The notes beneath the pieces were generated by a model. That model was not told the DNA's origin and ran no database searches. It saw nothing but the letters and a program-made list of their open reading frames with translations. From Mesorhizobium sp. (GTDB lineage: Bacteria; Pseudomonadota; Alphaproteobacteria; Rhizobiales; Rhizobiaceae): a DNA stretch of 64,000 nucleotides. Position numbers and translations under genes: made by a program. The stretch is from assembly GCA_004963905.1 (NCBI GenBank), contig SUGL01000027.1, positions 29,769 to 93,768 of the forward strand, in the 5' to 3' direction. Below are positions 7,883 through 25,252 of the stretch, piece after piece; within the stretch, counting starts at the first letter, position 1, and every line of letters begins with the position of its first letter.

Positions 7883-7925
7883 TGGTATGTTATACACGCT
7901 GCGTTCTCGGGGCGGATACGAGGCG

Positions 7926-8816
7926 ATGGATCAGGAAAGACTTCTAGCCGCAGTCCTCTTGGCTGATGTCGTGGGCAGCACGCCGCTCTATGAGCGCATC
8001 GGCGACGATGCCGCTCTGCGGCAGGTCTCGGATTGCCTCGACGCGATACGCGAGATTGTCGCCCAGCACGGCGGCGACTTCATTTACTCGAAAGGCGATG
8101 ACGTGCTCAGCCTGTTCGAGAGACCGGAGGCGGCGCTGAGGGCCGTCTGCCAAATCAACAGCGAAATGACGAGAGCGCCGTTGAACGCCCGGATCGGATT
8201 GCATTTCGGGGCGGTCATTCGCGCGCGGGGCGCGGTATTCGGCGACGTTGTCAATGTCACCGCAAGGCTGTCCACCACGGCCAACCCCGGGGAGGTGCTG
8301 ATCAGCCAGAGCTTCTTCGAAGCGCTTTCCGCGGGCAGCCGCGGTGCCTTGCGGCTCCTCGACAAAATGGCCTTCAAGGGGAAGCAGGAACTCTTCGATG
8401 TATATACTCTGGGGAGCGACGATGGGGCCCTCGGTACGCACATCGCCAGCCTGGGCACCATTATCGAAAGGCGTTCCGCGCCGCCGCGGCAGATCAATCT
8501 AATCATCCGCTATGGAGATCAGTTGGGATCCTGCCGAAACAACGAGTTCGTGACGATCGGCCGATCTCCGGAATGCAACATCGTCGTCCAGCGGCCATGG
8601 GTCTCAAGGCACCACGCGACCTTCACCATTTCGAATGGCAAGGCCCGGCTTATCGAGCGAAGCTCGTCGGGCACGTTTGTGTCGATGGGACCCGGCCATG
8701 AAGTATTCGTGCGCCGCGAAGATATTCTCCTCTTCGGCTCCGGCGTCATCTCGCCTGGACGCAGATCGTCTCTCGGCGACGCCCAGATCCTTCACTACGA
8801 AATTATCTCAGGCTGA
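7926..8816 (+). CDS. Class III adenylate/guanylate cyclase domain fused to FHA domain
   Basis: About 296 residues from the ATG at 7926; an ATG at 7887 in the same frame would add 13 residues. The cyclase homology domain (about residues 5-165) has the metal-binding ADVVGST motif near residue 13 and KGDDVL further on. The C-terminal part (about 195-290) is an FHA phosphothreonine-binding fold with VTIGRSPECNIVV and SRHHATF. Such proteins probably make cAMP or act as regulatory pseudo-cyclases, with the FHA domain linking to Ser/Thr phosphorylation. No kinase gene is adjacent. Confidence 0.88.
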   Translation: MDQERLLAAVLLADVVGSTPLYERIGDDAALRQVSDCLDAIREIVAQHGGDFIYSKGDDVLSLFERPEAALRAVCQINSEMTRAPLNARIGLHFGAVIRARGAVFGDVVNVTARLSTTANPGEVLISQSFFEALSAGSRGALRLLDKMAFKGKQELFDVYTLGSDDGALGTHIASLGTIIERRSAPPRQINLIIRYGDQLGSCRNNEFVTIGRSPECNIVVQRPWVSRHHATFTISNGKARLIERSSSGTFVSMGPGHEVFVRREDILLFGSGVISPGRRSSLGDAQILHYEIISG

Positions 8817-8956: not shown

Positions 8957-9685
8957 TCACCGGCAGGTGTAGCCGCCGTCGATTGGGAGGTGGATGCCGG
9001 TGATCATCGAGGCGGCATCGCTGAGCAGGAAGACGATCGGGCCGGCGACCTCGTCCTCGGTCGCCCAGCGGCCGAGCGGCATCTGCTTCAGGAACGGCTC
9101 GGCGACATGCGGCTGGCTCCAGTGGCCGGACGAGATCGGCGTCATCACCACGGTCGGGTTCACGCTGTTGACGCGGATGTTGTATTTGCCCAGTTCCAGC
9201 GCCGAGCAACGGGTGATGTTTTCCAGCGCCGCCTTGGAGGAGCCGTAGGAGATGTGGCCCTCGAGCGCGACCAGAGCCGCCTGGCTGGAGACGTTGACGA
9301 TCGCGCCGCCTTTGCCGATCGCCACCATCTGCCGCGTCGCGTATTTGGTGACCAGCAGCGCGCCGCGCGCATTGACGGTGATGACCTTGTCGAAGATGGC
9401 GATGTCGGTGTCCATCGGCGTCGCGATCTCGCCGCCGAAGCCGCCGCAATTGACCACGCCCCAGAGATCGAGACCTTCGAGAGCGTCGCGGATATCGTCT
9501 TCGGAGGCGAGGTCGAAAGTGACCGTACGGCAACCCGTTTCCCTGGCAATCGCATCGAGGGCCTCTTGCGAGCGTCCTGCGGCGATCACATTGGCGTTGG
9601 CGCGCACCAGATGCCGCACCGTGGCGCCGCCAATGCCGCCGCTGCCGCCCGTCACCAGAATATTTCTGCCCTGAAAATCCGTCAT
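8957..9685 (-). CDS. SDR family oxidoreductase, L-xylulose reductase-like
   Basis: 242 residues, a complete classical short-chain dehydrogenase. The nucleotide-binding motif GGSGGIGG is at residues 13-20, the catalytic Ser at 133/134, and the YxxxK pair at Tyr147 and Lys151. The short N-terminus, DLASED, VNCGG and the VNPTVVMT loop closely recall dicarbonyl/L-xylulose reductases (DCXR), which interconvert xylitol and L-xylulose. It is the distal gene of the minus-strand ABC operon (AGAGGGG before the ATG), so a pentitol or ketose redox step on the imported compound is likely. Confidence 0.87.
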   Translation of the reverse strand: MTDFQGRNILVTGGSGGIGGATVRHLVRANANVIAAGRSQEALDAIARETGCRTVTFDLASEDDIRDALEGLDLWGVVNCGGFGGEIATPMDTDIAIFDKVITVNARGALLVTKYATRQMVAIGKGGAIVNVSSQAALVALEGHISYGSSKAALENITRCSALELGKYNIRVNSVNPTVVMTPISSGHWSQPHVAEPFLKQMPLGRWATEDEVAGPIVFLLSDAASMITGIHLPIDGGYTCR

Positions 9686-9699
9686 GGTCCCCTCTGTGG

Positions 9700-10824
9700 T
9701 CAGTTGATGCGCGCCTCGGCGACGAATTCCGCCCCTGCCGCCGCGGCGGAAATCCTGTCGCCGGCACCGTTGAAAAGATGGCAGGCGCGAGCCGGCAGGC
9801 TGATGGCGATGGGGTCTCCCGCTCGCACGATGCGGCCACGGCTGTCGCGGATGACCAGGCTTTGCTCGCGCTCGCTGGCATGGATGAAGGTGTCGCTGCC
9901 GAGGAACTCGACCATGGAAGCCCGAATGACATGAACGCCGGCCTGGCCTTCATTCGCCAGCATCACATGTTCCGGCCGGATGCCGAGAGTGACGGCGTCG
10001 CCGGGCTCGACGCGCCGCTCGACGGGAATGCCCAGCCGCGGCCCCATCGAGAGCGCGACCGTCGCGACAGGACCCTGGACGGACTCGACATAGCCCTTCA
10101 GGAAATTCATCGCCGGCGAGCCGATGAAGCCGGCGACGAACAGGTTGGCCGGCCGATGATAAAGGTCGAGCGGCGCGCCGACCTGCTCGATCCGGCCGCC
10201 ATTCATGACCACGATGCGGTCGGCCAGCGTCATCGCCTCGACCTGGTCATGCGTGACATAGACCATGGTGGAAGCGAGCTCCGCCTTCAGCCGTGCGATC
10301 TCCACCCGCATGCCGACGCGAAGTGCTGCGTCGAGGTTGGAGAGCGGCTCGTCGAGCAGGAAGAGCTTCGGCTTGCGCGTCATGGCGCGGCCGATGGCGA
10401 CGCGCTGGCGCTGGCCGCCGGAAAGCTCGCGCGGCTTGCGCTTCAGGTATGAGCCGAGCCGCAGCTTTTCGGCGGCGCGGCCGACGCGTTCGGCGATCTC
10501 GGCGCCGGGCGTGCGGGCGATCTTGAGGCCGAAGCCGATGTTGCGGCCGACATCCATATGCGGATAGAGCGCATAGGACTGGAACACCATGGCGACGCCC
10601 CGCTCCGGCGGCTCGGCGTCGCTCATGTCGACGCCGTCGACCAGGATGCGGCCCGAGCTTATCGGCTCCAGCCCGGCGATGATCCGGAGCAGCGTGGACT
10701 TGCCGCAGCCCGAAGGCCCGACCAGCACGCAGAATTCGCCGTCCTCGATGGTCAGCGACAGTTCGGGAATGACCGTGGTGTGGCCGAAGGCCTTGGTGAT
10801 TTTGTCGATCGAGAGCGTCGCCAT
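9700..10824 (-). CDS. ABC sugar/polyol transporter ATP-binding protein (MalK/UgpC-like)
   Basis: 374 residues with Walker [10 protein letters not shown] (about 36-44), signature LSGGQRQR, Walker B LFLLDEP, YVTHDQ H-loop, and a C-terminal TOBE region. It lies 4 bases after the stop of the second permease gene, so it is cotranscribed with the importer on the minus strand. It supplies ATP hydrolysis for the CUT1 system encoded by 10829-13955. Confidence 0.92.
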   Translation of the reverse strand: MATLSIDKITKAFGHTTVIPELSLTIEDGEFCVLVGPSGCGKSTLLRIIAGLEPISSGRILVDGVDMSDAEPPERGVAMVFQSYALYPHMDVGRNIGFGLKIARTPGAEIAERVGRAAEKLRLGSYLKRKPRELSGGQRQRVAIGRAMTRKPKLFLLDEPLSNLDAALRVGMRVEIARLKAELASTMVYVTHDQVEAMTLADRIVVMNGGRIEQVGAPLDLYHRPANLFVAGFIGSPAMNFLKGYVESVQGPVATVALSMGPRLGIPVERRVEPGDAVTLGIRPEHVMLANEGQAGVHVIRASMVEFLGSDTFIHASEREQSLVIRDSRGRIVRAGDPIAISLPARACHLFNGAGDRISAAAAGAEFVAEARIN

Positions 10825-10828
10825 CGGC

Positions 10829-11665
10829 CTAGCCTTTCACCGCGCCGGCGAGCAGGCCGCGCACGAAGGCGCGCTGCACCAGCACATAGAGGAGGATCAG
10901 GGGGAGCGCGATCAGCGTCAGGATCGCAAAGAGCGCGCCGGGGTTGGCCATGTAGAGGCCGGAATACTGCATCGGCACGATGGTCAGCGTCTTCATCTCG
11001 CTCTTGGTCAGCACGATGAGGGCGAGGAAGAACTCGTTCCAGGTGACGATGAACTGCCAGATGGTGACGAAGACCAGCGCCGGCCGCACCAGCGGCAGGG
11101 CCACGTGCCAGTAGGTCTGCCAGGCATTGCAGCCGTCCACGCGCGCCGCCTCGAAGAGCTCGCGCGGCGCGTCCTCCATGAAGGCCTTGAGGATGACCAT
11201 GGCGAACGGCACGCCGAGCGCCGCATAGGGCAGGATGAGGCCGATATAGGTGTTCACCCAGCCGAAGGTTTTCAGCAGGATGGCCAAGGGCAGAACCATC
11301 GAGGCGAGCGGCACCATCAGCGTGGTGAGCAGGGCCGTGTAGAGGAACATCGAGCCCTTCAGCCTGAGGATCGCGCAGGCGAAGGCAAAGAAAGAGGAAA
11401 CCGTGACCACGATGACGACGGTCGCAACGGTGATGATCAGGCTGTTCAAGAAAATGCCGCCGAGCGGGTTGTCGCGGATGACGGTGACGAAGTTGTCGAA
11501 GGTCACCGGCCAGGTGAACAGCGCGGCGTCGAAGGCCTGCGCCGGGGTGCGCAGCCCGATCGAGAGCATGTAGACCTGCGGGATCATCCAGAAGCCGAGC
11601 ACGACGAAGAGAACCGCGTGGACGACCACGCCGTGGATGCGCTTGCGGGCGAGCGGCGCCATCAT
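10829..11665 (-). CDS. ABC sugar/polyol transporter permease (MalG-like)
   Basis: 278 residues beginning at the ATG at 11665, which overlaps the stop of the upstream permease (ATGA-type coupling). The frame stays open much further upstream, but that is only the antiparallel shadow of the other permease. It has six membrane segments, EAA motif LFEAARVDGCNAWQTYWHVALP, and C-terminus GLLAGAVKG. Confidence 0.92.
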   Translation of the reverse strand: MMAPLARKRIHGVVVHAVLFVVLGFWMIPQVYMLSIGLRTPAQAFDAALFTWPVTFDNFVTVIRDNPLGGIFLNSLIITVATVVIVVTVSSFFAFACAILRLKGSMFLYTALLTTLMVPLASMVLPLAILLKTFGWVNTYIGLILPYAALGVPFAMVILKAFMEDAPRELFEAARVDGCNAWQTYWHVALPLVRPALVFVTIWQFIVTWNEFFLALIVLTKSEMKTLTIVPMQYSGLYMANPGALFAILTLIALPLILLYVLVQRAFVRGLLAGAVKG

Positions 11666-12615
11666 GGCTGCTCCTTTCCGGCGGGCGACAGGCGCGCGCC
11701 GAGCAGCGCGATCTGGATCAGCGACAGCACGAGCGCGATGACGAGCACGATGACGGAGAGTGCCGCGCCGCTGGCGGTGTCGCCCAGCACGAAACTCTGC
11801 TTGAAGATGAAGGTGCCGAACACCTCGCTCGCCCGGTTCGGGCCGCCGCCGGTCATCAGATGCACGATCGGGAACGTCTGCAGCGTGCCGATGACGCCGA
11901 GCAGGAGCAGCGATTTCGTCGCCGGCGAAAGCATCGGCACGATGACATGGACGGCAAGCCGCCAGCCCCTGGCGCCGTCGATGCGGGCGGCGTCGAGCAC
12001 TTCGCTCGGCAGGTTGGCGATGCCGGCGATGTACATCAGCATCGAGAAGCCGGTCCATTGCCAGATGTTGACGACGATCAGCGCGTAGATCGCGGTCTTC
12101 GGATCGCCGATCGGCGAGGTCATCATGACGATGCCGACATGTTTCAGATATTCCTGGGCGATGCCGTAATAGGGTGCGTAGATCTGCACCCAGACCAGGC
12201 TGATGACCGAGACCGAGGTCACCACCGGCAGGAAGAACATGGTGCGGAAGAAGCCGCGCAAGACGTGCGTGTGACGCTCGATGAAATAGGCGAGCAGCCC
12301 GCCGATCAGCATCTGCACCGGGATGGTGATGACGCCCCACAGCACCATGTTGCGCACCACGATCCAGAAGGTCGGATCGCTCAGAATGGCCGTGTAATTG
12401 GCGAAGCCGGCAAAGACGGCGCGGCCGTCCTTCGCGCCGGTGTAAAGGCTCTGCCCGGCCACCCAGAGGATCGGATAGGCAATGAAGACGACGAAGAGCA
12501 GGGTTGCCGGCAGGGCAAACAGATAGAGCGTCGAAGCTCTCGATGCCGATCGCCGTTTTACCGCCGCGACGGCGGCTCCGGCTCGCATGGCCTCTGCGCT
12601 CATGATGCTCGCCAT
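11662..12615 (-). CDS. ABC sugar/polyol transporter permease (MalF-like)
   Basis: 317 residues with a cytoplasmic N-terminus, about six membrane helices, and an EAA loop (LDAARIDGARGWRLAVHVIVPML). The start is the ATG at 12615; an ATG at 12603 is also possible, and neither has a strong ribosome-binding site. A terminator-like hairpin separates it from the binding-protein gene, which suggests lower expression of the membrane parts than of the binding protein. Confidence 0.9.
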   Translation of the reverse strand: MASIMSAEAMRAGAAVAAVKRRSASRASTLYLFALPATLLFVVFIAYPILWVAGQSLYTGAKDGRAVFAGFANYTAILSDPTFWIVVRNMVLWGVITIPVQMLIGGLLAYFIERHTHVLRGFFRTMFFLPVVTSVSVISLVWVQIYAPYYGIAQEYLKHVGIVMMTSPIGDPKTAIYALIVVNIWQWTGFSMLMYIAGIANLPSEVLDAARIDGARGWRLAVHVIVPMLSPATKSLLLLGVIGTLQTFPIVHLMTGGGPNRASEVFGTFIFKQSFVLGDTASGAALSVIVLVIALVLSLIQIALLGARLSPAGKEQP

Positions 12616-12623
12616 CTTAACTG

Positions 12624-12655
12624 AAAAAAGAGCCGGGCGCGTCTCCGCGCCCGGC
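12624..12655 (-). terminator. Intercistronic terminator/attenuator between binding protein and permeases
   Basis: On the minus strand a perfect 10-bp stem (GCCGGGCGCG/CGCGCCCGGC, 12632-12655) with a 4-nt loop is followed by TC and six U residues. This is a classical intrinsic terminator. It sits directly after the binding-protein gene and before the permease start at 12615, so it probably causes partial termination that makes the binding protein more abundant than the membrane subunits. Confidence 0.8.
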
Positions 12656-12668
12656 AGTTGGTCTTGGG

Positions 12669-13955
12669 TTATTTCGATGCCAGAGCCTTTTCGCTCGCTG
12701 CCTGGACGGCGGCTAGAGCTGCTTCCGGCTCGGTGCTGCCGGCCGCGACCCCGGCCAGCGCGTTATCCAGCGCCTCGGCGACCGCAGGCGAGGCAAAGCG
12801 CTGGTTTTCCGCCTTGGGCAGGTCAGCCATGAAGCGCGCCGACATCTCCTTCACATGGTCGGTGATGTCGCCCTTGGGCGCATTGCCGTCGAAGGCCGGA
12901 AGGTCGTTGAGGTCGTTCAGCGCTTCCTGCAGGCCGACGCCGTTGGTGAGCTCGGCCAGGAAGGTCCAGGCGTCGGGGTTCTTGCCGCCGTTCTTGGTCA
13001 GGCCGTAACCGATGTCGATGCCGCCGACGGGCGGGCTGGCGGAATTGCCGTCCTTGACCGGGGGCAGATAGAAGAAATCGAAGCCCTCCATGTTCTGCAC
13101 GAATTCCGAAAGCGGCGGCGGGAACTTGCTTTCCTGCATCCACCAGGAGCCCAGCGCCATCATGCCGACCTTGCCTTGCGCGAAGAGCTGCGCGCCGGTC
13201 GGATAGGCATGGGCGCCGAGCGCGCCCTGCTGGAAGATGCCGTCGTCGAAGAGGCCTTTCCAGGCTTTCATGGCCGCGACCAGCTCCGGCGCCGTCCAGG
13301 GCGTCTCGCCAGCCTGGGCCTTGTCGACGATGCCGGCCGAGAACTGGTTGGCGAGCATCAGGAAGACGTTCTCGTTCTGCCAGCCGTCGGCCGCGCCCTG
13401 GAACATCGGGATATAGCCGTTGTCGGTCAGCGCCTTGGCCGCCGCCTTCAGGTCGGCATAGGTCTTCGGAATGGAAAGATTGAGCTTCTCGAAGATCTTG
13501 CGGTTGTACCAGATGCACAGGACCTGGGATTCCTGCGGGATGATGTAGTAGTTGTCATCCCCCTTCGGATTGCCCATCAGCATCTGCTTGCGGTTGACGG
13601 GAAAGACCTTGTCGGCCCATTTGTCGCCCCACTGTTTGGCGGCGCGCTCGTTCACCGCTTCGAGGTGTTCGCGGTATTGCTGAGTGAGCGAGCCCGGCTG
13701 CAGGCCGATCACGTCGGGCAGGCTTCCCGAGGCGGCCGCCGCCTTCAGCGCGGTGATGTATTCGGGCGAGTAGTTGTAATAGGTGTATTTGACCTTGATG
13801 TCGGGATGCGCCTTCTCGAAGGCGGCGATCGACTTCTCCATCGTGCTTTGCACGAACCAGGACCAGACCGTCACCTCTTTCTGCTCGGCATTGGCCGACG
13901 CGGAATAAAGCGCGGCGGCGAGGATCGTCGTCGCAAGAAACAGCATTTTTCTCAT
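12669..13955 (-). CDS. ABC sugar/polyol transporter substrate-binding protein
   Basis: 428 residues from the ATG at 13955, chosen because GGGAGGAATGTG precedes it and a Sec signal peptide (MRKMLFLATTILAAALYSASANA) starts there. The mature protein is a family 1 binding protein (EVTVWSWF near the N-terminus, NYSPEYITALKAAAASGSLPDV). First gene of the importer part of the cluster, downstream of the aldolase-like gene and a hairpin array. The neighbouring SDRs and kinase suggest a polyol or ketose ligand. Confidence 0.91.
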   Translation of the reverse strand: MRKMLFLATTILAAALYSASANAEQKEVTVWSWFVQSTMEKSIAAFEKAHPDIKVKYTYYNYSPEYITALKAAAASGSLPDVIGLQPGSLTQQYREHLEAVNERAAKQWGDKWADKVFPVNRKQMLMGNPKGDDNYYIIPQESQVLCIWYNRKIFEKLNLSIPKTYADLKAAAKALTDNGYIPMFQGAADGWQNENVFLMLANQFSAGIVDKAQAGETPWTAPELVAAMKAWKGLFDDGIFQQGALGAHAYPTGAQLFAQGKVGMMALGSWWMQESKFPPPLSEFVQNMEGFDFFYLPPVKDGNSASPPVGGIDIGYGLTKNGGKNPDAWTFLAELTNGVGLQEALNDLNDLPAFDGNAPKGDITDHVKEMSARFMADLPKAENQRFASPAVAEALDNALAGVAAGSTEPEAALAAVQAASEKALASK

Positions 13956-14020
13956 CACATTCCTCCCTTTTTTGGCTTCCATACGAAGCGTGCCGCGAGC
14001 CTCCATCCCGCGGGCGCCGC

Positions 14021-14090
14021 GACCCGCTGCCGGGTCACATTCAGGCGCGACGGTTTGCCGTCGCCGCCACCGCGACGGCGTGCCGTCGCG
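14021..14090 (-). other. Array of three hairpins between aldolase and binding-protein genes
   Basis: Three consecutive inverted repeats with short loops: GACCCG/CGGGTC (14021-14036), GCGACGG/CCGTCGC (14047-14064) and CGCGACGG/CCGTCGCG (14071-14090). They fill most of the 140-base gap upstream of the binding-protein gene. Likely roles are mRNA stabilisation of the binding-protein transcript or segmentation of the operon. No U-tract is present. Confidence 0.6.
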
Positions 14091-14095
14091 CTTGG

Positions 14096-15112
14096 TCAGG
14101 CCGCCTTGGCGGCCGCGACCGTCAGCACCTCTTCCGTGATCACCCGGTCATCGGCGAGCGGCCGGTTCGGCGTCAGCCCGAGCTTCTGCAGTTCACCATG
14201 ATAGGCGCGCACCGCTTCCTCCGGCGTGATCGCGCCGTCGGCGACGGCGCGCATCAGGACAATGAGCTGCAGCGGCGCCTCGGCGAGGTTGATCTTGCGG
14301 CCGAAGAGGGCTAAGCGGGCGCCATAGCGCTCCGACTGGGCGACGAGCTCGAATGTGTCGCGCGTCGTGCCGGCGCCGCCGCCGAGCACGCCGACGATCA
14401 GCTCGGAATCGAAGCTCGCGAGTTCCTCCAGCGCCTTCGGACCGTTATAGGCGGTCTTCAGGAACAGCGGGCGCTCGGCCTTCGGCACGCTCGCCAGCGA
14501 CTTGATGATGTTGTCGTTGACGAACTCGCCGATCTGCTCGCGACTGAAGCCGAGATCGATGCTCGGATTGAAGACCTCGTAAAAATACTTGAAGTTGACC
14601 CGGGCCGCCTCGGCGCGGAATTCGGCGAAGGCGTTCAACGTGCGAACATCGAGCTCGACATCGTTGCTGAACGAGACCGAATAAAGGGCAAGGTCAGTGC
14701 CGCGCGACGGATAGTTGGCGATGGCGCGCGAAAGATTGGTGTCGCGGAAGGGCACGGACGGCGTCTGCGTGTAGGTGCCGTGGCGCACGGCGCCCCAGCA
14801 CATGGTTTCCAGATTGCCGCGTATCGCCGGCTTCACTTCGCTGCCGAAAAAGGCGCCGCGCTCGTCGAGAAGATCGAGGTTGGACTGCGACACCAGCATG
14901 ATGTCGACGATGCCCTGTTTGATGATCTCTTCGATCTGGGCGATGAATTCCTGGCGGCTGCGGCGGCGCGGCGGCCTGACCGAATAATCGAAGCCCGTGG
15001 CGGTCACGCCGGCGCCGACGTCGCTGTCCTTGGCGTCGGCAATGACGAAATCCGCCCGCGTGTAACGGCCAGCGCGGATATTCGCCAGCTTCCTGTCCAG
15101 CCTCGTGACCAT
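14096..15112 (-). CDS. DhnA-type class I aldolase-like TIM-barrel protein
   Basis: 338 residues, likely cytoplasmic. The C-terminal half has the order of features of DhnA (archaeal-type class IA) aldolases: a strand ending in a candidate Schiff-base lysine (PLFLKTAYNG, Lys219), then a Gly-rich phosphate-binding stretch (GVLGGGAGTTRDTF), then ALFGRKI, matching the usual VGR motif. The family cleaves ketose phosphates such as fructose 1,6-bisphosphate. The long N-terminal extension with FDYSVRPPRRRSRQEF is unusual. First gene of the minus-strand operon and divergent from an ADP-dependent kinase, so it may cleave that kinase's product. The assignment is by motif, without a search. Confidence 0.65.
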   Translation of the reverse strand: MVTRLDRKLANIRAGRYTRADFVIADAKDSDVGAGVTATGFDYSVRPPRRRSRQEFIAQIEEIIKQGIVDIMLVSQSNLDLLDERGAFFGSEVKPAIRGNLETMCWGAVRHGTYTQTPSVPFRDTNLSRAIANYPSRGTDLALYSVSFSNDVELDVRTLNAFAEFRAEAARVNFKYFYEVFNPSIDLGFSREQIGEFVNDNIIKSLASVPKAERPLFLKTAYNGPKALEELASFDSELIVGVLGGGAGTTRDTFELVAQSERYGARLALFGRKINLAEAPLQLIVLMRAVADGAITPEEAVRAYHGELQKLGLTPNRPLADDRVITEEVLTVAAAKAA

Positions 15113-15522
15113 CGTGTTCCTCGGTGAAATTGTTGTGCGGCGGAGCCGCCGCCCTGTCTCTTCGCCGCCGTGGGCGTATCAGGACTATGCGGATAATTCT
15201 CATAATCTGTCAATAGCTATCTAAATCTATCTAATTTGAACGCCGATGACGCTTGATGGCACTGCGATATGCCAACGAAGCTTTCCACCCAGAACGATGA
15301 AGGATTGCAAACCGTTGATTTAAAAGAAAAAGTCATAAGAAAGGCGATCGGGTAGGACACGATTCTTCCTGACGAAAGCTCCGGTTGCAGCGGGCTTGGC
15401 ACTTAGCCGAGGCCTGCGACCGTCGCGCAATTCCAGTGCGCGAAAGCAAAAACCGCATTGACGCTTTGGAAGATAATGATAGCAATTGACAGCGCGGTCA
15501 GGCGAGGAGGAAGCCCCGGGCC
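15113..15522. other. Divergent promoter region between aldolase and ADP-kinase genes
   Basis: 410 bases, visibly AT-richer than the surroundings around 15180-15240. It holds a TTGACA -35-like box for the minus strand and an adjacent direct repeat (see 15208-15233). On the plus side GAGGAGGAAG (15505-15513) is the ribosome-binding site of the kinase gene. No coding frame is credible here. Confidence 0.6.
15208..15233 (-). promoter_or_regulatory. Candidate -35 box with adjacent direct-repeat operator
   Basis: On the minus strand TTGACA lies at 15213-15208, with CATAGT about 18 bases further as a possible -10. Immediately upstream of the -35 box is a direct repeat of CTATCTA (plus-strand 15217-15223 and 15227-15233, 10-bp period), which puts both copies on one face of the helix. 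It could bind the DeoR-family regulator encoded at 17616. Confidence 0.4.
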
Positions 15523-16788
15523 ATGAGTGATGTTTTCAGCGGATCGTTCGCGGATCGCTATGCCGCGCTGACCGATCGGTCGGGTCCGTTCAGCGCCGAC
15601 GCGCTGTCGTCGGCGGGGCTTTTCCTGTGCGGCATCAGCGCCTGCGTCGACGCGCGGGTCGAGATGCATGAGATCCAGCCGCTGCTGGACGGGCCGCCCG
15701 ACACGCCGGCGGGGCGGCTTGCCAGTCTTCTTCTTTCGCGCGCCGCGCGCGGGGTGGGCGGCGAGGTGCGCTTCGACTGGCCGGAGGGCCCGGCATGGCT
15801 GCGCGAGCGTCTGCGTCCGCGCTATGCGCTGGGCGGCACCGGACCGCAGGCGGCGTGGGTGCTCGGGCAGTTCGGCGTCCGCTCATTGGTCGCCTTGGAA
15901 GATCGCTATGCGGCGATGCTGCGGCAAATGCCGGACGGTGTCCTGCTGGCGGAAAGAGGCACGCTCAAAACCGCCGATCAGGTGCTGGCGTCGGGCCCGC
16001 ATCCGCCGGAAATCTTCATCTTCGAGTTCACCGCCGGCCGCGCGATCGGCGCCACCGTGCCGACCCGTTCCTCGCGGGTCATCGTCCGTTTCGGCGACCG
16101 CGGCATCCAGCATGACGGGGAGTTCGAAGCCATGTCGCGGCGGCTGGCGCCGTCGGCCGCCGCCGGGCTGCTGGCCGGGCTGAACGACGAGGCGGCGGAC
16201 AATGTCGGCGCCGCCAGCCGGCACGTCTTCGGTCTCAGCCGCGACTGGAAGGCGGCCGGTCTCGCGACAATCCATTTCGAGCTGGCGGGCTACGCATCGC
16301 AGCAGGCGGTCGAGGAATTGCTTTCCCACGCCCGTGGCGCGATCAGCTCGCTCGGCATGAGCCATTCCGAGCTGCTCGCCATGAACCCTTCCATGGATCA
16401 TCCGATGGAGGCTCTCATGGCGCTCGGCGAGCGGCTTGGTCTCGACAGGGTCTGTGTTCACGCCGATACCTGGGCGGCCGCGGTGACGCTCAACGATCCG
16501 CAAGAAGAGGAGCTGGCGCTGATGGCCGGTTGCGCGATCGCCAGCGCCAGGGCCGCCAATGGCGCGCCCGCGCGGGATATAGCGATCTCCCCCGCCGCGG
16601 AGTTCCATCCGCTTCCCTTCGAAACGCCGGTACGCCGGGGACGCTGGGCATTCGTCGCCTGCGCGTCGCCCTATCTGAGCCAGCCGGTAACGACGCTCGG
16701 CCTGGGCGACAGTTTCACCGCCGGCTGCCTGCTCATCCTCGGCCGAACCCGGCACGCCAGCACCGGTTCCAGCCTCCAACACGCCTGA
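15523..16788 (+). CDS. ADP-dependent sugar kinase (ADP-glucokinase/phosphofructokinase family)
   Basis: 421 residues, close to the 450 of archaeal ADP-dependent kinases. Visible family marks in order: a substrate-site GGTGPQAAWVL (Gly104 onwards, the counterpart of the archaeal GGN(A) motif), HFELAGYASQQAVEELL (His251-Phe-Glu253), SSLGMSHSELLAMNP matching the SLGLNEQEL region, and LGLGDSFTAG with the catalytic base Asp396. Members phosphorylate glucose or fructose 6-phosphate using ADP and are chiefly archaeal. Here the gene heads an operon with an SDR and a DeoR regulator, so a ketose or sugar phosphate from the imported substrate is the likely acceptor. The acceptor and the actual ADP dependence are inferred. 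Confidence 0.8.
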   Translation: MSDVFSGSFADRYAALTDRSGPFSADALSSAGLFLCGISACVDARVEMHEIQPLLDGPPDTPAGRLASLLLSRAARGVGGEVRFDWPEGPAWLRERLRPRYALGGTGPQAAWVLGQFGVRSLVALEDRYAAMLRQMPDGVLLAERGTLKTADQVLASGPHPPEIFIFEFTAGRAIGATVPTRSSRVIVRFGDRGIQHDGEFEAMSRRLAPSAAAGLLAGLNDEAADNVGAASRHVFGLSRDWKAAGLATIHFELAGYASQQAVEELLSHARGAISSLGMSHSELLAMNPSMDHPMEALMALGERLGLDRVCVHADTWAAAVTLNDPQEEELALMAGCAIASARAANGAPARDIAISPAAEFHPLPFETPVRRGRWAFVACASPYLSQPVTTLGLGDSFTAGCLLILGRTRHASTGSSLQHA

Positions 16789-16799
16789 AGGAAATTGCC

Positions 16800-17573
16800 A
16801 TGTTTCTCGAACGCTTCCGCCTCGACGGCAAAACGGCCTTCATCACCGGCGGTGGCCGCGGCATCGGCCTTTCGACGGCCGAGGCGCTGGCCGAGGCCGG
16901 CGCGAAGGTCATCATCTCGGATTTGGATCGCCAGGTGCTGGCGGCCGGACGCGAGGAGCTGAAGCAGAAAGGCCACGACGTTGACGCAGTGCAGCTCGAC
17001 GTCACCGATTCCAAGGCCGTCGCCGCGGCCGCGCGGGCGGCCAACGAGCGCCACGGCGCCGTCGATATCCTGATCGCCAATGCCGGCATCGCCTGGCCCG
17101 ACACGGGCGGGGAGGAGATGAGCGACGAGGTGTGGCTGAAGGTGGTCGACGTCGACCTCAACGGCGCCTACTGGTCGTGCCGCGAGTTTGCGAGACCCAT
17201 GCTCGAACGCGGCCGTGGCTCGATCGTGACCCTCGGCTCGATGTCTGGGCTGATCTCCAACAAGCCGCAGCGCCAGGTGCATTACAACGCGGCGAAGGCC
17301 GCCGTCCATCATATGACGCGCTCGCTTGCCGGCGAATGGGCCGCACGCGGCGTCCGGGTGAACTGCGTCGCGCCGACCTATGTCGACACGGCGATGTCGC
17401 GCGGCGGCTTCACGGACGAGAAACTGATGCCGATCTGGATGGACATGACACCGATGAGGCGCGTCGCGCGCCCGGACGAGATCGCCGCGCCCATCCTCTT
17501 CCTCGCGTCGGACGCCGCCAGCGCCATGACCGGGGCGGTGGTGGTTGTGGATTGCGGCTATACGATTTGGTAG
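16800..17573 (+). CDS. SDR family polyol/sugar dehydrogenase
   Basis: 257 residues from the ATG at 16800, which follows AAGGA at 16788-16792; the frame is open further upstream inside the kinase gene but that part is a shadow. The cofactor motif TGGGRGIG is at about residues 16-23, NAG at about 94-96, catalytic Ser147/149, Tyr162 and Lys166. The overall pattern matches NAD(P)-dependent polyol dehydrogenases or gluconate 5-dehydrogenases. Twelve bases separate it from the ADP-kinase. With the SDR at 8957 it gives the cluster two redox steps. Confidence 0.88.
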   Translation: MFLERFRLDGKTAFITGGGRGIGLSTAEALAEAGAKVIISDLDRQVLAAGREELKQKGHDVDAVQLDVTDSKAVAAAARAANERHGAVDILIANAGIAWPDTGGEEMSDEVWLKVVDVDLNGAYWSCREFARPMLERGRGSIVTLGSMSGLISNKPQRQVHYNAAKAAVHHMTRSLAGEWAARGVRVNCVAPTYVDTAMSRGGFTDEKLMPIWMDMTPMRRVARPDEIAAPILFLASDAASAMTGAVVVVDCGYTIW

Positions 17574-17615
17574 GGATTGCCGATTTGGCGCGGCCGGCGC
17601 CGGGCGGGTTGAAAC

Positions 17616-18464
17616 ATGGATACTCCGAGCAAGCGCGTCGATATGGTTCCCGCCAAGCGGCAGGCGCTCATCCTGGAGCATCTGCGCGTCAACGGCGCGG
17701 CCTCGATCCAGGAGCTTGCCGACACGATCGGCGGCTCGCAGTCGACGGTGCGGCGCGACCTCGAGCATCTGGTCGAAAAAGGCTATCTCGAACGCACGCA
17801 TGGCGGCGCGCATCTGTTGCAGCCGATGCGCGCGACCTTCGAGCGCGAGACGACGGTCAATGCCGAATTGCAGCACGCGGAAAAGGTCGCGATCGGCCGC
17901 GAGGCAGCCGGGCGGCTGAGCGCCCGCGACAGCGTCATCTTCGACAGCTCCTCGACCGTCATGGAGGCGGTCCGCGCCGCCGCCGAGCGGGACCTGCCGC
18001 TGACCGTGGTGACGAACAGCCTGGAGATCGCCGATTTTGCCGTCGACATCAAATCCTGGCGCATCATCCTGCCGGGCGGCACCGTGCGTCCCGGCTACCG
18101 GCATCTGGCCGGGGAGCCCGGCGAAAGCTTCATCAAGACGCTGCATGCCGATCTCTGCATGACCGGCGCGTCGGCGGTCACCGGCGCGCTGCTGACCGAG
18201 ACGTCGCTGGAAGTGGCCTCGCTCAAGCGCGCCATGATCGGCTCCGCCCGCAAGACGATCCTGCTCGTCGACAGCTCGAAGTTCACCGCGCCCGGTTTCT
18301 GCACGCTTTCGGACATTTCCGAGATCAACGAGGTGATCACCGACGAGGGCGTGTCGCAGGACGCGCTATCTTCGCTATACGCCGCCGAGCGAAAGGTGAC
18401 GGTGGTGCGCGTCGGCGGCCTGACAGGGACGCGTCGCCCGGTCGGCAGCCTTCGGCCACTGTAA
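17616..18464 (+). CDS. DeoR family transcriptional regulator
   Basis: 282 residues. An N-terminal DeoR helix-turn-helix (KRQALILEHLRVNGAASIQELADTI, STVRRDLEHL) is followed by the sugar-phosphate isomerase-like DeoRC domain with FDSSSTVMEAV and the usual C-terminal Asp/Ser/Lys patch (LLVDSSKF). These regulators respond to phosphorylated sugars. As the last gene of the kinase operon it probably senses the kinase product and represses both arms of the divergent cluster. Confidence 0.9.
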   Translation: MDTPSKRVDMVPAKRQALILEHLRVNGAASIQELADTIGGSQSTVRRDLEHLVEKGYLERTHGGAHLLQPMRATFERETTVNAELQHAEKVAIGREAAGRLSARDSVIFDSSSTVMEAVRAAAERDLPLTVVTNSLEIADFAVDIKSWRIILPGGTVRPGYRHLAGEPGESFIKTLHADLCMTGASAVTGALLTETSLEVASLKRAMIGSARKTILLVDSSKFTAPGFCTLSDISEINEVITDEGVSQDALSSLYAAERKVTVVRVGGLTGTRRPVGSLRPL

Positions 18465-18468
18465 ACGT

Positions 18469-19572
18469 CTACTCCACCATGAACCGCGAGCTGAAGGGAA
18501 GGCTCGCCGCTCCTACCGCCTTGGGCGAACGCTCGATGTTGCCGGCAATCGCGGTAATGCCGGGCATGGCCTGCTCCAGCTCGCGGCAGATCGCCTTGCA
18601 GACCGCCTGCGGCGCGTAGGAGGACAGGACGACCGAGGTTACGGGAACGAACTGCTTCAGCGCCCCTATCGACAACTTCATCTGCTCCACCAGGTCGCGT
18701 TGCCATGCGGTCTCGGCATCGCCAAACGACGGCCAGTCGGCGCCTCGTTCCCAGAGTTCGGAGGGCGAGCTGCCTGTCTTCCGGATCTCCTCCTCCAGAC
18801 GCAGGATGCCGACGTCGAAGCTCACCGCGGCGGCGGTGTTGTAGATTTGATGATTGAGGACCAGGCGGCTGTGCAGGCGCGCGCCGAGATAGAAGAAAAG
18901 GTAGTCCGAAAGGTGCTTCGCGACGCCGAACATGCTTTCGCCGCCGGCCGCCGCGGTGATGTCGTTCTGGACATAGACAGGGTAGCCGATTTCCCTTTCG
19001 ACCTCCTCCTGCAGGGCGTCGAACCGCTCGCGGGCCGCCTTCGGCGTCAGCTCGAGCTCGGCCTGATCGCCGGGCAAGGCAAGGCCGATGCCGGCGATGC
19101 GCGGGTGAAGGTGCTGCGGCAGATTGGCGATGGCCGTGGCGATGGCGCTCATGAATTGCGGATGGTTGGTGTCCTGCGCGGTCGCCGAGAACGGCAGCAC
19201 CGTGCGCGAGCGGATCGAGCCGACGAAGTCGACGAGCACGACCTCCACCTGCCGATGGCCGACGCTGATGCCGACGGAGTAGGCGCCTTCCGGGTTGAGG
19301 GAGATCGGCACTGTCGGCGGCCCGACACGACCACGCTGGGCCTCGCCTTTGGCGATCAGCCCTTCCTGCTCGAGCGATCGGACGATGACGGACACCGTCT
19401 GCGCCGACAGGCCGGTCCGCTCGCCGATCTCGAGACGGGTGATGCCTTTGCTCTGGAGCAGCAGCGACAGCACGAGACGCTCGTTGTAGCCGCGCACGCT
19501 GACGGCATTGAGGCCGCTGGCGCGGTCCGCGATGCGAAGCGGGTTGGGCGGCGCAAAGCGCATGTCAGGCAT
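18469..19572 (-). CDS. ROK family transcriptional regulator
   Basis: 367 residues starting after GAGAGG. An N-terminal winged helix (about residues 25-85, ERTGLSAQTVSVIVRSLEQEGLI) is joined to a ROK fold with SVGISVGHRQVEVVLVDF and VQNDITAAAGGESMF. The CxCGxxGC zinc motif of typical ROK proteins is missing, so it is a regulator with a degenerate sugar-binding domain rather than a kinase. Convergent with the DeoR gene and just upstream of the SGNH hydrolase gene on the same strand, it may regulate the 19620-26002 region. Confidence 0.86.
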   Translation of the reverse strand: MPDMRFAPPNPLRIADRASGLNAVSVRGYNERLVLSLLLQSKGITRLEIGERTGLSAQTVSVIVRSLEQEGLIAKGEAQRGRVGPPTVPISLNPEGAYSVGISVGHRQVEVVLVDFVGSIRSRTVLPFSATAQDTNHPQFMSAIATAIANLPQHLHPRIAGIGLALPGDQAELELTPKAARERFDALQEEVEREIGYPVYVQNDITAAAGGESMFGVAKHLSDYLFFYLGARLHSRLVLNHQIYNTAAAVSFDVGILRLEEEIRKTGSSPSELWERGADWPSFGDAETAWQRDLVEQMKLSIGALKQFVPVTSVVLSSYAPQAVCKAICRELEQAMPGITAIAGNIERSPKAVGAASLPFSSRFMVE

Positions 19573-19619: not shown

Positions 19620-20270
19620 TCACTTCTCATCCGGCCACCCGATTGCCTCGACCTCGCGGGCCAGCGCGCTGCCCAGCAGCGCATGCGCCTGCCTGTTGAT
19701 GTGGAACCCGTCGAGCGGGTCGCAGGTGACGACCGAGCCCGCGTCGAAGAAATGCACTTCGAGCGAATCGGCGATGATCTCGAACTCGAGCGCCAGCTGC
19801 CGCGACTTCTCCGGCGCGCCGGCGAAGATCGACCGCCATTCCTTGATGTCGTCCAGCATCGGCGGTGGAGAGACGATCATGATCTCTGGCACGCTGCCGC
19901 CCGGGCCGGGCTTCAGCTCCTTGATGTCGTAGACAAGGCAGCCCATGGCCATCGCGACTTCCGAGGCCGGCTGGTTGAAGCGCGCCTTGAGGTCGTTGGT
20001 GCCCAGCATGATGATGACCAGATCGAGAACGGCGTGACTCTGCAGGCAGGGTTTGAGGTAGGTGCGCCCGTTCTTGTGGGCACCCTCGATCGGATCGTCG
20101 CGCACGGTCGTGCGGCCGCTCAGGCCCTCCTCGATGACATGCCAGCCGGCTCCCAATTCCTTTGCCATGACGCCGGGCCAACGTTCCGAAAGACCATAAC
20201 GGTCCAGCGGCGTGCCGCCGGGTACCTGCCCATGCGTGTTGGAGTCGCCGTAGCACAAGACCGATCGCAT
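19620..20270 (-). CDS. SGNH/GDSL hydrolase (arylesterase-like)
   Basis: 216 residues. Block I GDSNTHG carries the nucleophile (Ser10), block III is GTND, and the C-terminal DPLDGFHIN gives the Asp-His pair. It resembles the second SGNH protein at 25322 across its length (VIEEGLSGRTT, DLVIIMLGTND) but lacks the tryptophans after the nucleophile. No signal peptide, so cytoplasmic. Divergent from the RbsBAC-like operon, so it may deacylate the transported compound. Confidence 0.87.
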   Translation of the reverse strand: MRSVLCYGDSNTHGQVPGGTPLDRYGLSERWPGVMAKELGAGWHVIEEGLSGRTTVRDDPIEGAHKNGRTYLKPCLQSHAVLDLVIIMLGTNDLKARFNQPASEVAMAMGCLVYDIKELKPGPGGSVPEIMIVSPPPMLDDIKEWRSIFAGAPEKSRQLALEFEIIADSLEVHFFDAGSVVTCDPLDGFHINRQAHALLGSALAREVEAIGWPDEK

Positions 20271-20667: not shown

Positions 20668-21741
20668 GTGAGACGGATTATCCAATCAATCGCAGCGGCG
20701 GTGATCGCGACAACGATGTTGTGCGCTCCCTCGTTTGCCGACGACGTGTCCCTGCTGGATGGGGTTGCCGCCCGCGCGGGCGACAACCCGACGGTCGAGG
20801 CCGGCAAGTTCAAGAAGGATGCGCCCTGGGTCATCGGCATGAGCCATTTCGGCGTCAACGCGAACACCTGGACGGTGCAGGTCGCGCACGAAGCCGAGGC
20901 TGCCGCCGCCAAGGACAAGCGCATCGCCAAGTTCATCCTGCTCGATGCCGGCTTCGACCAGAAGAAGCAGGTCGCCGACATCGAGGACCTGATCGCGCAG
21001 AAGGTCGACGCCATCATCGTCCAGCCGGTCACGTCCACTTCGGCGGACGCCAGCATCGCCAAGGCCGTCGCGGCGGGCATCCCTGTCATCGTGCACACCG
21101 GCCGCATCGAATCCGACGCCTTCACGACCGAGATCCAAGGCGGCGCCGAGCATTTCGGCAAGGTGATGGGCGATTTCCTGGTCAAGGACCTCGGCGGCAA
21201 GGGCAACATCTGGGTGCTGCGCGGGCTCGCCGGCCATCCGGAGGACACCAACCGCTACAACGGCTTGCTGCAGGCGCTGAAGGGAACCGACGTCAAGATC
21301 ATCGCCGAGGAGCATGGCGACTGGCAGTACGACAAGGCCAAGAAGCTTTGCGAGACACTCTACCTGAACAACCCCGAGGTGGACGGCATCTGGTCCTCCG
21401 GCGCCGACATGACGCGCGCCTGCGTCGACGTCTTCAAGCAGTTCGGCGCCAAGATCCCGCCGATCACCGGCGAGGGCAACAACGGCTTCTTCGGCCAATG
21501 GATCGCCGACGGCTTCAAGTCGATCTCGGCGGAATACAGCCCGGCCCAGGGCGCGGCCGGCATCCGCGCCGCCGTGGCCCTGCTCGAAGGCAAGGAGCTG
21601 AAGAAGCACTACGACTACAACCCACCCGGCTGGGATCTCGAGAAGGTCAAGAAATACTATCGCGACGATCTCTCGGCCAATGTCTGGTGGCCGTCGGAGC
21701 TGCCGGAAGACAAGCTCAAGGAGTTCTACGCCAAGAAGTAA
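20668..21741 (+). CDS. ABC sugar transporter substrate-binding protein (RbsB-like)
   Basis: 357 residues from the GTG at 20668, chosen for GAAGGAGG eight bases upstream and for the Sec signal peptide that starts there (cleavage near SFADD). The mature protein is a periplasmic-binding/LacI-fold protein: GMSHFGVNANTWTVQ, QPVTSTSADASIAKAVAAGIPVIVHTG, DGIWSSGADMTRA. First gene of a CUT2 importer with the ATPase and two permeases. The ligand is unknown. Confidence 0.9.
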   Translation: MRRIIQSIAAAVIATTMLCAPSFADDVSLLDGVAARAGDNPTVEAGKFKKDAPWVIGMSHFGVNANTWTVQVAHEAEAAAAKDKRIAKFILLDAGFDQKKQVADIEDLIAQKVDAIIVQPVTSTSADASIAKAVAAGIPVIVHTGRIESDAFTTEIQGGAEHFGKVMGDFLVKDLGGKGNIWVLRGLAGHPEDTNRYNGLLQALKGTDVKIIAEEHGDWQYDKAKKLCETLYLNNPEVDGIWSSGADMTRACVDVFKQFGAKIPPITGEGNNGFFGQWIADGFKSISAEYSPAQGAAGIRAAVALLEGKELKKHYDYNPPGWDLEKVKKYYRDDLSANVWWPSELPEDKLKEFYAKK

Positions 21742-21821
21742 AGGGTGGCGCCATCGCGGCGCGGGCGGCGGCGACGCCGCCCGCGCCGCGGAAATCTCCT
21801 GAATGCATCGGTGCTTGCTTC

Positions 21822-23335
<1,514 letters not shown>

Positions 23336-23339
<4 letters not shown>

Positions 23340-24298
23340 CAGCCATAAGCAGACGCCTGACGGGCGCAAGGGGATCGCGCCAGGGCATGTGGATGCTGCC
23401 CTTGCTGATCGCGCTGGCGATCGCGCTCTGGCTGAGCCTCGAGACCGCGCAGTTCCTCAACGGGGAGAACCTGCTCAATCTGGTGCCGCAGGCGATGCCG
23501 CTCGTCATTACCGCGGTCGGCCAGATGTTCGTCATCCTGCTCGGCGGGCTCGATCTTTCGGTCGGCTCGATGATCAGCTTCACAACGGCAGTGCTTGCGC
23601 TTGGCGGACCCGCCTGGCTGCTGATCCCGGCCGTGTTCGTGCTGGCTGCGCTGGTCGGCTTCACCAACGGCTTCATCATCACGCGCTTCAACGTGCATCC
23701 GATCATCGCGACCCTGTCGATGCAGTACATTTTGCTCGGCATCACGCGGGTGCTGCGGCCAGTGTCCGGCGGCACGGTGCCGGATATCGTCATCAGCGCC
23801 GTCGCCGGCTCGTTCCTCGGAGTGCCGATGCCGGTATTCTGGGGGATTTTCACCCTCGCGTTTGCCTGGAAGCTCGTCTACGGCTCGCGCTTCGGGCTGC
23901 ACCTTTTCGCGATCGGCGGCGGCGTGTCGTCCGGCGTGGAGGATGCGGCGCATAATTTCGGCATTGCCGACAGGCGCAACGTCATCCTCGCTTATGTGAT
24001 CTGCGCATGTTTCGCGGCCCTTGCCGGCCTCTTCCTCGCCGGGCGCATCGTCTCGGGCGACCCGAATGTCGGGCTGCTTTTCGAGCTCGACGCGATCACG
24101 GCCGTTGCTATCGGCGGCACCCAGCTTTCCGGCGGCATCGGCAGCCTGCACGGCACGGTCATCGGCGCGCTCGTCATGGCGCTGCTCGCCAACGGCATGA
24201 ACCTGACGAATGTGTCGCCCTTCATCCAGACCACCATAAAGGGCGCGATCCTGCTTCTGGTGGTCGCCCTGCAATCGCGCAAGAAAATGGGGTTGTAA
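23336..24298 (+). CDS. ABC sugar transporter permease (RbsC-like) 1
   Basis: 320 residues from the ATG at 23336, overlapping the ATPase stop (ATGA) after GGCAGGAGAG. About eight membrane helices and the RbsC signatures ILLGGLDLSVGSM and AIGGTQLSGGIGSLHGTVIGALVM. It forms the channel with the next gene. Use of two different permeases rather than a homodimer is common in rhizobial CUT2 systems. Confidence 0.92.
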
Positions 24299-25252
24299 GT
24301 GGCTGCCGCTCTCGCCAACCCCGTCATGCGCCGGCTGCTTCGCATCCCGCCGGCCTACTACGTCTTTGCCGTGCTGCTTTTGGTTTTGTGGATCGCGCGG
24401 CCGAACATGCTCAACCTCAATGTCATGGGCATATTCGTGCGCCAGATCGTGCCCCTCGGCATATTGGTGCTCGGCCAGCTGCTGGTGATGCGGGTGAGAA
24501 GCATCGACCTGTCGGGCGGCGGCGTCATCCTGCTCATCAACTACACCATCTCGTCCGGCGTCTTTCCGGGCGCCTCCATGATTTTCTTCATTGTCCTGGC
24601 GTTGGCCATCGGCCTCGCCGTCGGATTCTTCAACGGCCTGATGGTCGGGGTCAGGCGGGTCTCGGCCGTCATCGTCACGCTTGCGATCGGCATCGTTCTC
24701 GTCGGGATCGTGCAGTATCTGTCCAGCGGCAAGCCGCCCGGCGATGTGCCCGGCATGTTCGGCGACATCTACAACACCAAGCTCGGCCAGGTGCCGACGC
24801 CCGTGATCTTCTGGGTGGCGGTTTCGGCCGCGCTGTCGCTGTTCCTGTCACGCACGGTCTTCGGCCGCTATGTGACCTCGGTCGGCGAGAACGTGCAGGC
24901 GGCGCATTTCTCCGGCGTTCCGGTGGCTCGCACCGTGGTGCTTGCGCATACGCTCGCCGGCCTGTTCGCGGGGGTGGCGGCGCTGGTCCAGACGGCGTCG
25001 ATCGCGGTCGGCAGCGTCAGGGTCGGCCTCGACCTGCCGATCCTGGCGGTCGCCGCAACCATCCTTGGCGGCGTCGTCTTCGGCCGCGGGGAAGGTGGCG
25101 TCTGGGGTCCCTTCTTCGGCGTGCTGTCGTTCGCGCTGCTGTTCGTCGTGATGACTACCTTCGGCGTCGATGAGCCCGGCAAGCTGATCGCGCAGGGCCT
25201 CATCATCCTGCTTGCGGCCATCCTTTACGGGATCAGGAGCAGGTCGACGTGA
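24299..25252 (+). CDS. ABC sugar transporter permease (RbsC-like) 2
   Basis: 317 residues, starting at a GTG that directly abuts the stop of permease 1 (an in-frame ATG near 24326 is also possible). RbsC-like, with VMRVRSIDLSGGGVILL in the position of the GGLDLSVG loop and AATILGGVVFGRGEGGVWGPFFGVL near the C-terminus. Second membrane subunit of the importer. Confidence 0.9.
   Translation: MAAALANPVMRRLLRIPPAYYVFAVLLLVLWIARPNMLNLNVMGIFVRQIVPLGILVLGQLLVMRVRSIDLSGGGVILLINYTISSGVFPGASMIFFIVLALAIGLAVGFFNGLMVGVRRVSAVIVTLAIGIVLVGIVQYLSSGKPPGDVPGMFGDIYNTKLGQVPTPVIFWVAVSAALSLFLSRTVFGRYVTSVGENVQAAHFSGVPVARTVVLAHTLAGLFAGVAALVQTASIAVGSVRVGLDLPILAVAATILGGVVFGRGEGGVWGPFFGVLSFALLFVVMTTFGVDEPGKLIAQGLIILLAAILYGIRSRST

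Follow-up and report, generated by a model that had tools for sequence, protein, structure and literature searches.

An ADP-kinase-family protein and an unrecognised aldolase-like protein form a conserved module in a Mesorhizobium import locus: a candidate route of ketose breakdown

What would a rhizobium break down with a sugar importer encoded beside a member of the family of ADP-dependent sugar kinases, which are studied chiefly in archaea and mammals? The question is raised by a gene cluster in a stretch of 64,000 nucleotides of Mesorhizobium sp. (assembly GCA_004963905.1, 7.06 Mb in 450 contigs; contig SUGL01000027.1, positions 29,769 to 93,768), hereafter the window. The gene set consists of two divergent operons with a gap of 410 bp between them. 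The minus-strand operon encodes, in order, a putative class I aldolase (ALD), a binding protein, two CUT1-type permeases, an ATPase and a short-chain dehydrogenase (SDR1), and the plus-strand operon encodes a sugar kinase (KIN), a second short-chain dehydrogenase (SDR2) and a DeoR-type regulator (Table 1). All the genes named in a preliminary description of the locus, namely a CUT1 importer, two SDRs, a kinase, an aldolase-like protein and a DeoR regulator, were found. Kinase and aldolase form a real and conserved module, which is probably co-regulated and most likely serves a ketose made from a sugar or sugar alcohol that the importer takes up.

The unbiased test of the pairing comes from a sample of 297 genomes of the window's order, and the locus counts given further below show recurrence and not unbiased enrichment. 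KIN was found in 16 of these genomes, or 15 once a partial match of 67 residues was dropped, and ALD in 41, or 36 after removal of five with weak partial matches only. ALD is carried by 13 of the 15 genomes with a full-length KIN as against 23 of the 282 others (Fisher p 1.2e-11, with kinship ignored), and 13 of the 20 full-length KIN genes have an ALD gene within 3 kb in the coordinates of this sample. Thus, the co-occurrence in other genomes on which the preliminary description had made its proposal depend is there, the two genes are neighbours, and a chance neighbourhood was rejected. The sample contains seven more genomes of the window's genus, and neither gene was found in any of them, so that the cluster is accessory. 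In a phylum sample, PF04587, the ADP-dependent glucokinase/phosphofructokinase family of KIN, occurs in 1 of 299 genomes, which is the window's own.

Recurrence was followed in loci obtained by scanning species genomes with one peptide pattern around GLGD, where the best 80 of 114 candidates gave 78 loci whose titles include Alphaproteobacteria, Verrucomicrobiota, actinobacteria, Chloroflexi, Dormibacteraeota and Firmicutes. Genes were called mechanically and labelled by profiles built on clusters in the same loci. The addition of three plasmid loci and six further stretches led to 87 KIN genes of at least 300 residues, 84 without near-copies. An aldolase gene lies within 6 kb of 74 of these 84, the nearest being ALD in 39, a LacD-type aldolase in 23 and a class II ketose-bisphosphate aldolase in 12; as a control, 16 importer permeases of these loci that lie further than 6 kb from KIN were examined, and 2 of them have an aldolase within 6 kb.

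The partners of kinase and aldolase substitute for one another. When the aldolase type is mapped on the KIN tree, leaving out ten aldolase-less genes, at least four changes are needed where the minimum possible is two, and the supported branches alone force two changes for ALD, in a quick search with several long branches. The LacD and class II representatives were checked with Pfam and NCBIfam. In particular, the two LacD-type partners tested both score above the cut-off of the NCBIfam tagatose-bisphosphate aldolase subfamily, one that was tested matches solved LacD and YihT aldolases, and K132, E168 and K208 are invariant in all 17 aligned. Exchange is also present on the other side: among 34 ALD loci fetched for lacking a nearby KIN, a PfkB gene lies within 3 kb in 26 and an FGGY gene in 2, with neither in 6. 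Of all 84 ALD genes, a redundant set partly chosen via KIN, 41 have KIN as their nearest kinase within 3 kb, 30 have PfkB, 3 have FGGY and 10 have none. The PfkB family that partners ALD is near none of the 84 KIN genes. This exchange of partners supports the breakdown of a ketose by a kinase followed by an aldolase.

Some of these loci have peculiarities of their own. In L092 and L093 (Mesorhizobium sp. BR1-1-16 and Kaistia soli) two KIN genes stand about 10 kb apart, one by ALD and one by a LacD-type aldolase. In L006/L080 (a plasmid of Rhizobium sp. RCAM05350) the ALD, ATPase and DeoR genes seem fragmented, through decay or sequencing errors. L009 and L010 (Martelella and Agrobacterium fabrum) combine ALD relatives with a GlpD-like dehydrogenase, an FGGY kinase, a CUT1 importer and a SorC-type regulator; here a polyol is possibly phosphorylated first and oxidised after.

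By profile, predicted fold and conserved residues, KIN is a member of PF04587. Its profile score is 47.2 bits (cut-off 27; E-value in Table 1), and 35 of 35 aligned relatives, drawn from several phyla, match the family at E 0.001 or better, one of them giving a weak PfkB match as well. An AlphaFold model with a predicted local distance difference test score (pLDDT) of 92 has ADP-dependent kinases as its best 22 matches in the PDB (E 1e-23 to 1e-15); the next class follows at 3e-8, seven orders of magnitude behind in E-value. The nearest relative is a kinase of Mesorhizobium tamadayense (85% identity), and identity to solved ADP-kinases, mostly archaeal, is 15-18%. The term "archaeal-type" used at first for the kinase had to be given up, with relatives in several bacterial phyla and identities this low. 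Recent transfer from archaea is unlikely because of the same 15-18% identity; the KIN tree took in no archaeal rows.

The residues of KIN can be compared with those of an ancestral ADP-kinase. As described in the excerpts of PMC7948494 that we used, the family relies on an Asp in GXGD that acts as the base, on the Glu residues of the HXE and DXXE motifs, on an Arg at the donor phosphate and on a His contacting the ribose; a Glu (E90) is retained solely in glucokinases and bifunctional enzymes, and one Lys, one Asn and one Arg solely in phosphofructokinases and bifunctional enzymes. In KIN, E81, R185, E253, E283, H313 and D396 are invariant in 35 of 35 rows. When matched by eye, and by spacing for the Arg, D396, E253, E283, R185 and H313 appear as counterparts of the family residues in these excerpts, with E81 at the position of E90. 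Specific ADP-dependent phosphofructokinases have Lys179 and Asn181 and no Glu90; again by eye, KIN has Pro162, Ile164 and Glu81 there. The Lys at the position of Pro162 is critical for fructose 6-phosphate in the same source, and many KIN relatives have a His at the position of Ile164. R189 lies near the phosphofructokinase Arg with a shift of two residues, an ambiguous match. The phosphofructokinase reading of KIN was dropped on account of the missing phosphate-binding Lys (Pro162). Since the glucokinase-type Glu is there and the phosphofructokinase Lys and Asn are replaced, KIN can be read with moderate confidence as a kinase for a free, unphosphorylated sugar.

ALD appears in public records as a "hypothetical protein" and matches no Pfam or NCBIfam family. 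A scan of 31 relatives gave chance matches only, to unrelated families (best E 0.056), and none of the 31 matched PF01791, the DeoC/LacD class I aldolases; a PF01791 search of its own genome found two other genes, ALD not among them. When a profile of 31 rows was compared with solved proteins, LsrF came out best (E 0.0016) and the next other protein at 0.26. The predicted structure (23 rows; pLDDT 77, predicted TM-score 0.80) has 59 structure matches at E 0.001 or better, with M. jannaschii ADH synthase (2qjg), LsrF, YihT and LacD among them (best E 3.3e-6). Like the DhnA/LacD-like aldolases, the model is a TIM barrel whose sixth strand bears a candidate Schiff-base Lys. This residue, K219, falls within predicted strand 217-221; E179 is in strand 175-181 and Y144 in strand 141-147. 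All three are invariant, and their strands are those which we take to bear the catalytic residues, including the Lys, in DhnA-type aldolases. An aldolase-like fold is supported by the model, and ALD does not match PF01791. Of the earlier assignment to the DhnA type, what stands is the predicted fold and, weakly, the LsrF match; the family libraries lend it nothing. The epithet "archaeal-type" does not suit a protein of an unrecognised family whose profile finds no match in that of the LacD-type partners.

All in all, we consider it somewhat probable that the cluster works as a single regulon under DeoR control, by which a sugar or sugar alcohol is imported and then broken down via a ketose, KIN and ALD. 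The CUT1 system, to judge from its family, would import the sugar or sugar alcohol, and SDR1, SDR2 or both would convert it to a ketose, as their nearest relatives suggest. KIN would then phosphorylate the free ketose, most likely with ADP, the donor of its family, and most likely at C1. ALD, acting as a class I aldolase with a Schiff base on K219, would split the ketose phosphate into dihydroxyacetone phosphate (DHAP) and an aldehyde. A phosphate at C1 is likely by analogy, because the partner aldolases of known kind, LacD-type and class II, release DHAP.

The step upstream of the kinase differs between loci. The closest solved structures of SDR1 are L-xylulose reductases (1pr9) and a sorbitol dehydrogenase, and those of SDR2 a putative polyol dehydrogenase (3awd) and a galactitol dehydrogenase (2wdz). 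In the window's clade, 14 of the 17 KIN genes have an SDR gene nearby, and 24 of the 39 KIN genes paired with ALD have one within 6 kb. Within the same distance, the 23 LacD-type loci have an SDR in 6, a cupin isomerase-like gene in 4 and an IolE-like gene in 3, and the 12 class II loci have a cupin isomerase-like gene in 1 and an SDR in 1. Evidence for isomerases is thin: cupin isomerase-like genes are near 5 of 84 KIN genes (IolE-like genes likewise near 5 of 84), one protein tested scores above the Pfam lyxose-isomerase cut-off, and a single mannose-isomerase-like protein tested falls below that of NCBIfam. Alditol dehydrogenases and aldose isomerases both yield ketoses, which makes the ketose the common denominator. 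The oxidation of a polyol to a ketose, as first proposed, is therefore retained in so far as both SDRs resemble polyol or ketose enzymes; an SDR is not general (24 of 39), and the binding protein disfavours a polyol, as discussed below. In 6 of the 12 class II loci, KIN has within 6 kb a gene for a protein of 400 residues that matches neither Pfam nor NCBIfam (positions 3099-4343 of L133, with relatives in Lachnospiraceae and kin); this protein may be an unrecognised isomerase.

A common regulation of the two operons is suggested by their promoters. In an alignment of 12 promoter regions (the window and 11 others) two blocks are nearly constant and the remainder drifts; both blocks contain TGTCAATWGCTATC, and each operon has one of them at its side. 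A search of the window for the 15-base pattern gave two occurrences, each of them exact (0.09 expected with up to two mismatches), and the assembled genome has exactly two exact copies, the two before these operons. All 17 loci of the clade have a DeoR gene no further than 9 kb from KIN. Because of the motif shared by both operons and this constant DeoR gene, the two would form one DeoR-controlled regulon, with the DeoR protein presumably binding the two copies of TGTCAATWGCTATC.

Several observations weigh against this explanation. The best solved relatives of the binding protein bind oligosaccharides (chitin- and xylo-oligosaccharide, and other sugars; E 2e-15 and weaker), which disfavours a polyol as substrate and lowered our confidence in the best explanation by a very small step. 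Upstream of the operons, 7 of the 11 relatives have the 14-mer unaltered on the ALD side and 2 of the 11 have it so on the kinase side, with substitutions in the rest; when up to two mismatches are allowed, 16 matches are found in the genome as against 9 for a reversed control. As for the catalytic motifs first ascribed to the kinase, GLGD and HxE are there, and N/DxxE reads SHSE, with Ser as its first residue and the Glu retained; the His of HxE is not retained in the Firmicutes relatives. The ALD model is moderate at the pLDDT given above, its TM-scores by query to aldolases are about 0.42-0.57, and the profiles of ALD and of the LacD-type partners do not align (hhalign probability 0.05). 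The locus labels derive from the very loci that were counted, so that the counts stand for recurrence only. Finally, 10 of the 84 KIN genes have none of the three aldolase types within 6 kb; 4 of these are within 1 kb of the end of a stretch and 6 are not, L008 and L182 having 9 kb of sequence on either side.

To these points is added a ribulokinase-like FGGY gene, which 6 of the 17 loci of the clade have at no more than 9 kb from KIN and which stands next to the cluster in Agrobacterium, in Pleomorphomonas and in R. subbaraonis; it could point to a second phosphorylation. In such a route a first kinase, for instance of the FGGY family, would make a ketose 5- or 6-phosphate, KIN would phosphorylate C1 and ALD would cut a ketose bisphosphate. 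Shinella has an FGGY-CUT2-ROK set adjoining ALD-PfkB, the LacD and class II partners bear bisphosphate names, and R189 of KIN, ambiguous as it is, may sit near the phosphofructokinase Arg. However, an FGGY or PfkB gene is within 6 kb of only 11 of the 74 aldolase-linked KIN genes and absent from 63, by the profiles used and in a count that would miss kinases of other families, and the FGGY gene found beside related clusters has as its best match in the window genome a sequence of 31% identity, which is no close copy. Both findings favour a single phosphorylation. In KIN itself the phosphate-binding Lys, as defined in the excerpts of PMC7948494, is gone and the glucokinase-type Glu is invariant, and we regard two kinases acting in series as unlikely.

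Two other routes depart further from the scheme with one phosphorylation and cleavage of a ketose phosphate. The SDRs might act on a cyclic or oxidised sugar, as in an inositol-like or ulosonate route in which KIN and the aldolase would be the counterparts of IolC and of the DUF2090 aldolase and would cut a keto-deoxy acid phosphate. Kaistia, Aureimonas AU20 and related loci do have KIN with IolE-like and Gfo/Idh genes, and the PfkB partners of ALD score best with IolC, far under the cut-off (4 tested). For the one LacD-type partner tested, the closest solved relative is a DUF2090 protein (8tnf), whose domain has been proposed as an aldolase of the myo-inositol pathway (PMC9007349). Yet Pfam and NCBIfam scans find no IolE-like gene in the window's cluster, 79 of 84 KIN genes have none within 6 kb, and the window's SDRs resemble polyol dehydrogenases, all of which renders this route improbable. 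Slightly more remote still is a thiolase-like or other Schiff-base activity of ALD, by which the product of the kinase would be transferred and not cleaved. LsrF is thiolase-like in autoinducer-2 breakdown, and it is the sole solved protein below E 0.01 for the ALD profile; against this, two other aldolase families adjoin KIN in other bacteria, and by fold ALD matches, among others, the aldolases YihT and LacD as well as ADH synthase with fructose bisphosphate.

The one-phosphorylation scheme resembles several known systems in part. The sulfo-Embden-Meyerhof-Parnas (sulfo-EMP) pathway (YihS-YihV-YihT) adds a phosphate to C1 of a ketose, which a LacD/DhnA-like class I aldolase then splits into DHAP and an aldehyde. 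One LacD-type KIN partner matches YihT, as does the ALD fold, whereas the window's cluster has a PF04587 kinase in place of a PfkB-type sulfofructose kinase, an aldolase of an unrecognised family, SDRs instead of an isomerase and no sulfonate gene recognised in the Pfam and NCBIfam scans. A sulfosugar reading of the window was rejected, as no such gene was recognised; a sulfoquinovosyl-glycerol binding protein was a distant match (E 2.8e-5). The modified glycolysis of archaea, with ADP-glucokinase, ADP-phosphofructokinase and class IA aldolase, shares the kinase family and the DhnA-like aldolase fold, but KIN is 15-18% identical to the solved ADP-kinases, belongs to a peripheral, importer-linked operon and has a sugar site nearer to glucokinase than to phosphofructokinase. 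The tagatose routes (LacC-LacD and GatYZ) likewise place an aldolase after a kinase, and LacD-type and class II aldolases adjoin KIN elsewhere; they differ in that the window's cluster shows an ADP-family kinase and no phosphotransferase system, and 63 of 74 loci have no second FGGY or PfkB kinase nearby. Rhizobial pathways for sorbitol, galactitol and altritol employ a CUT1 importer and an SDR, and to our knowledge PfkB or FGGY kinases. The window's cluster is similar in its CUT1 importer, its polyol-dehydrogenase-related SDRs and its DeoR-type regulator.

Word searches of the open-licence PubMed Central (PMC) literature yielded, among the matches listed, no description of a PF04587 kinase in a rhizobial polyol cluster and no rhizobial pathway of this make-up, in agreement with the preliminary description. 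Bacterial ADP-dependent sugar kinases have already been reported (PMC7948494, in the excerpts used); a role for them was not found described among the same matches, and the excerpts of PMC12203962 contain nothing that we found on bacterial members. A bacterial branch that recurs by aldolases in sugar-import operons would give the ADP-kinase family a new role in peripheral ketose breakdown. In parallel, the pairing would assign a testable function to a conserved family of "hypothetical proteins", and the exchange of partners predicts that products of the same kinase serve all three aldolase types as substrates. Bacteria of several phyla may thus run an ADP-fuelled breakdown of ketoses, in which the bacterial ADP-kinase branch would work with any of three aldolase types, ALD being a new class I family absent from Pfam and NCBIfam, and would be fed by exchangeable ketose-forming enzymes; for this wider view we consider the chances to be evenly balanced.

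Table 1. Features of the cluster, with positions in the window
Feature	Positions	Strand	Support
SDR1, short-chain dehydrogenase	8957..9685	-	PF13561 E 7e-51; PDB 1pr9 E 3.9e-46, 4egf, 4npc
ABC importer ATPase, MalK/UgpC type	9700..10824	-	NCBIfam UgpC 464 bits, cut-off 432
CUT1-type inner-membrane permease 2, ATG at 11665	10829..11665	-	PF00528 E 5.6e-20
CUT1-type inner-membrane permease 1	11662..12615	-	PF00528 E 6e-14
SBP_bac_1 sugar-binding protein	12669..14006	-	PF01547 E 1.5e-31
ALD, putative class I aldolase	14096..15112	-	Predicted fold; weak LsrF profile match; invariant K219, E179, Y144
Promoter-region motif TGTCAATAGCTATCT, ALD-operon side	15208..15222	+	Exact copy
Promoter-region motif TGTCAATTGCTATCA, kinase-operon side	15477..15491	-	Exact copy
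KIN, sugar kinase, PF04587 (ADP-dependent glucokinase/phosphofructokinase family)	15523..16788	+	E 1.7e-12; predicted fold
SDR2, short-chain dehydrogenase	16800..17573	+	PDB 3awd E 2.3e-84, 2wdz E 7.6e-61
DeoR/GlpR-type regulator, likely of both operons	17616..18464	+	PF08220 and PF00455

The spacing of a few bases first reported for the operons applies to the short gaps within them, and not to the 53 bp between permease and binding protein, the 89 bp between binding protein and ALD and the 42 bp before the DeoR gene. The coordinates of the binding protein use the first ATG, and its true start may be further downstream. A ROK-type regulator (18469-19572) and the CUT2 importer to its right were placed outside the cluster because they are not retained in all relatives. 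This CUT2-type importer (20716-25252) is flanked by two GDSL-type esterase genes (19620-20270 and 25322-26002), which suggests the uptake of an acylated sugar by that region. Directly to the left of the cluster, positions 7887-8816 encode an adenylate/guanylate cyclase domain fused to a C-terminal FHA domain.

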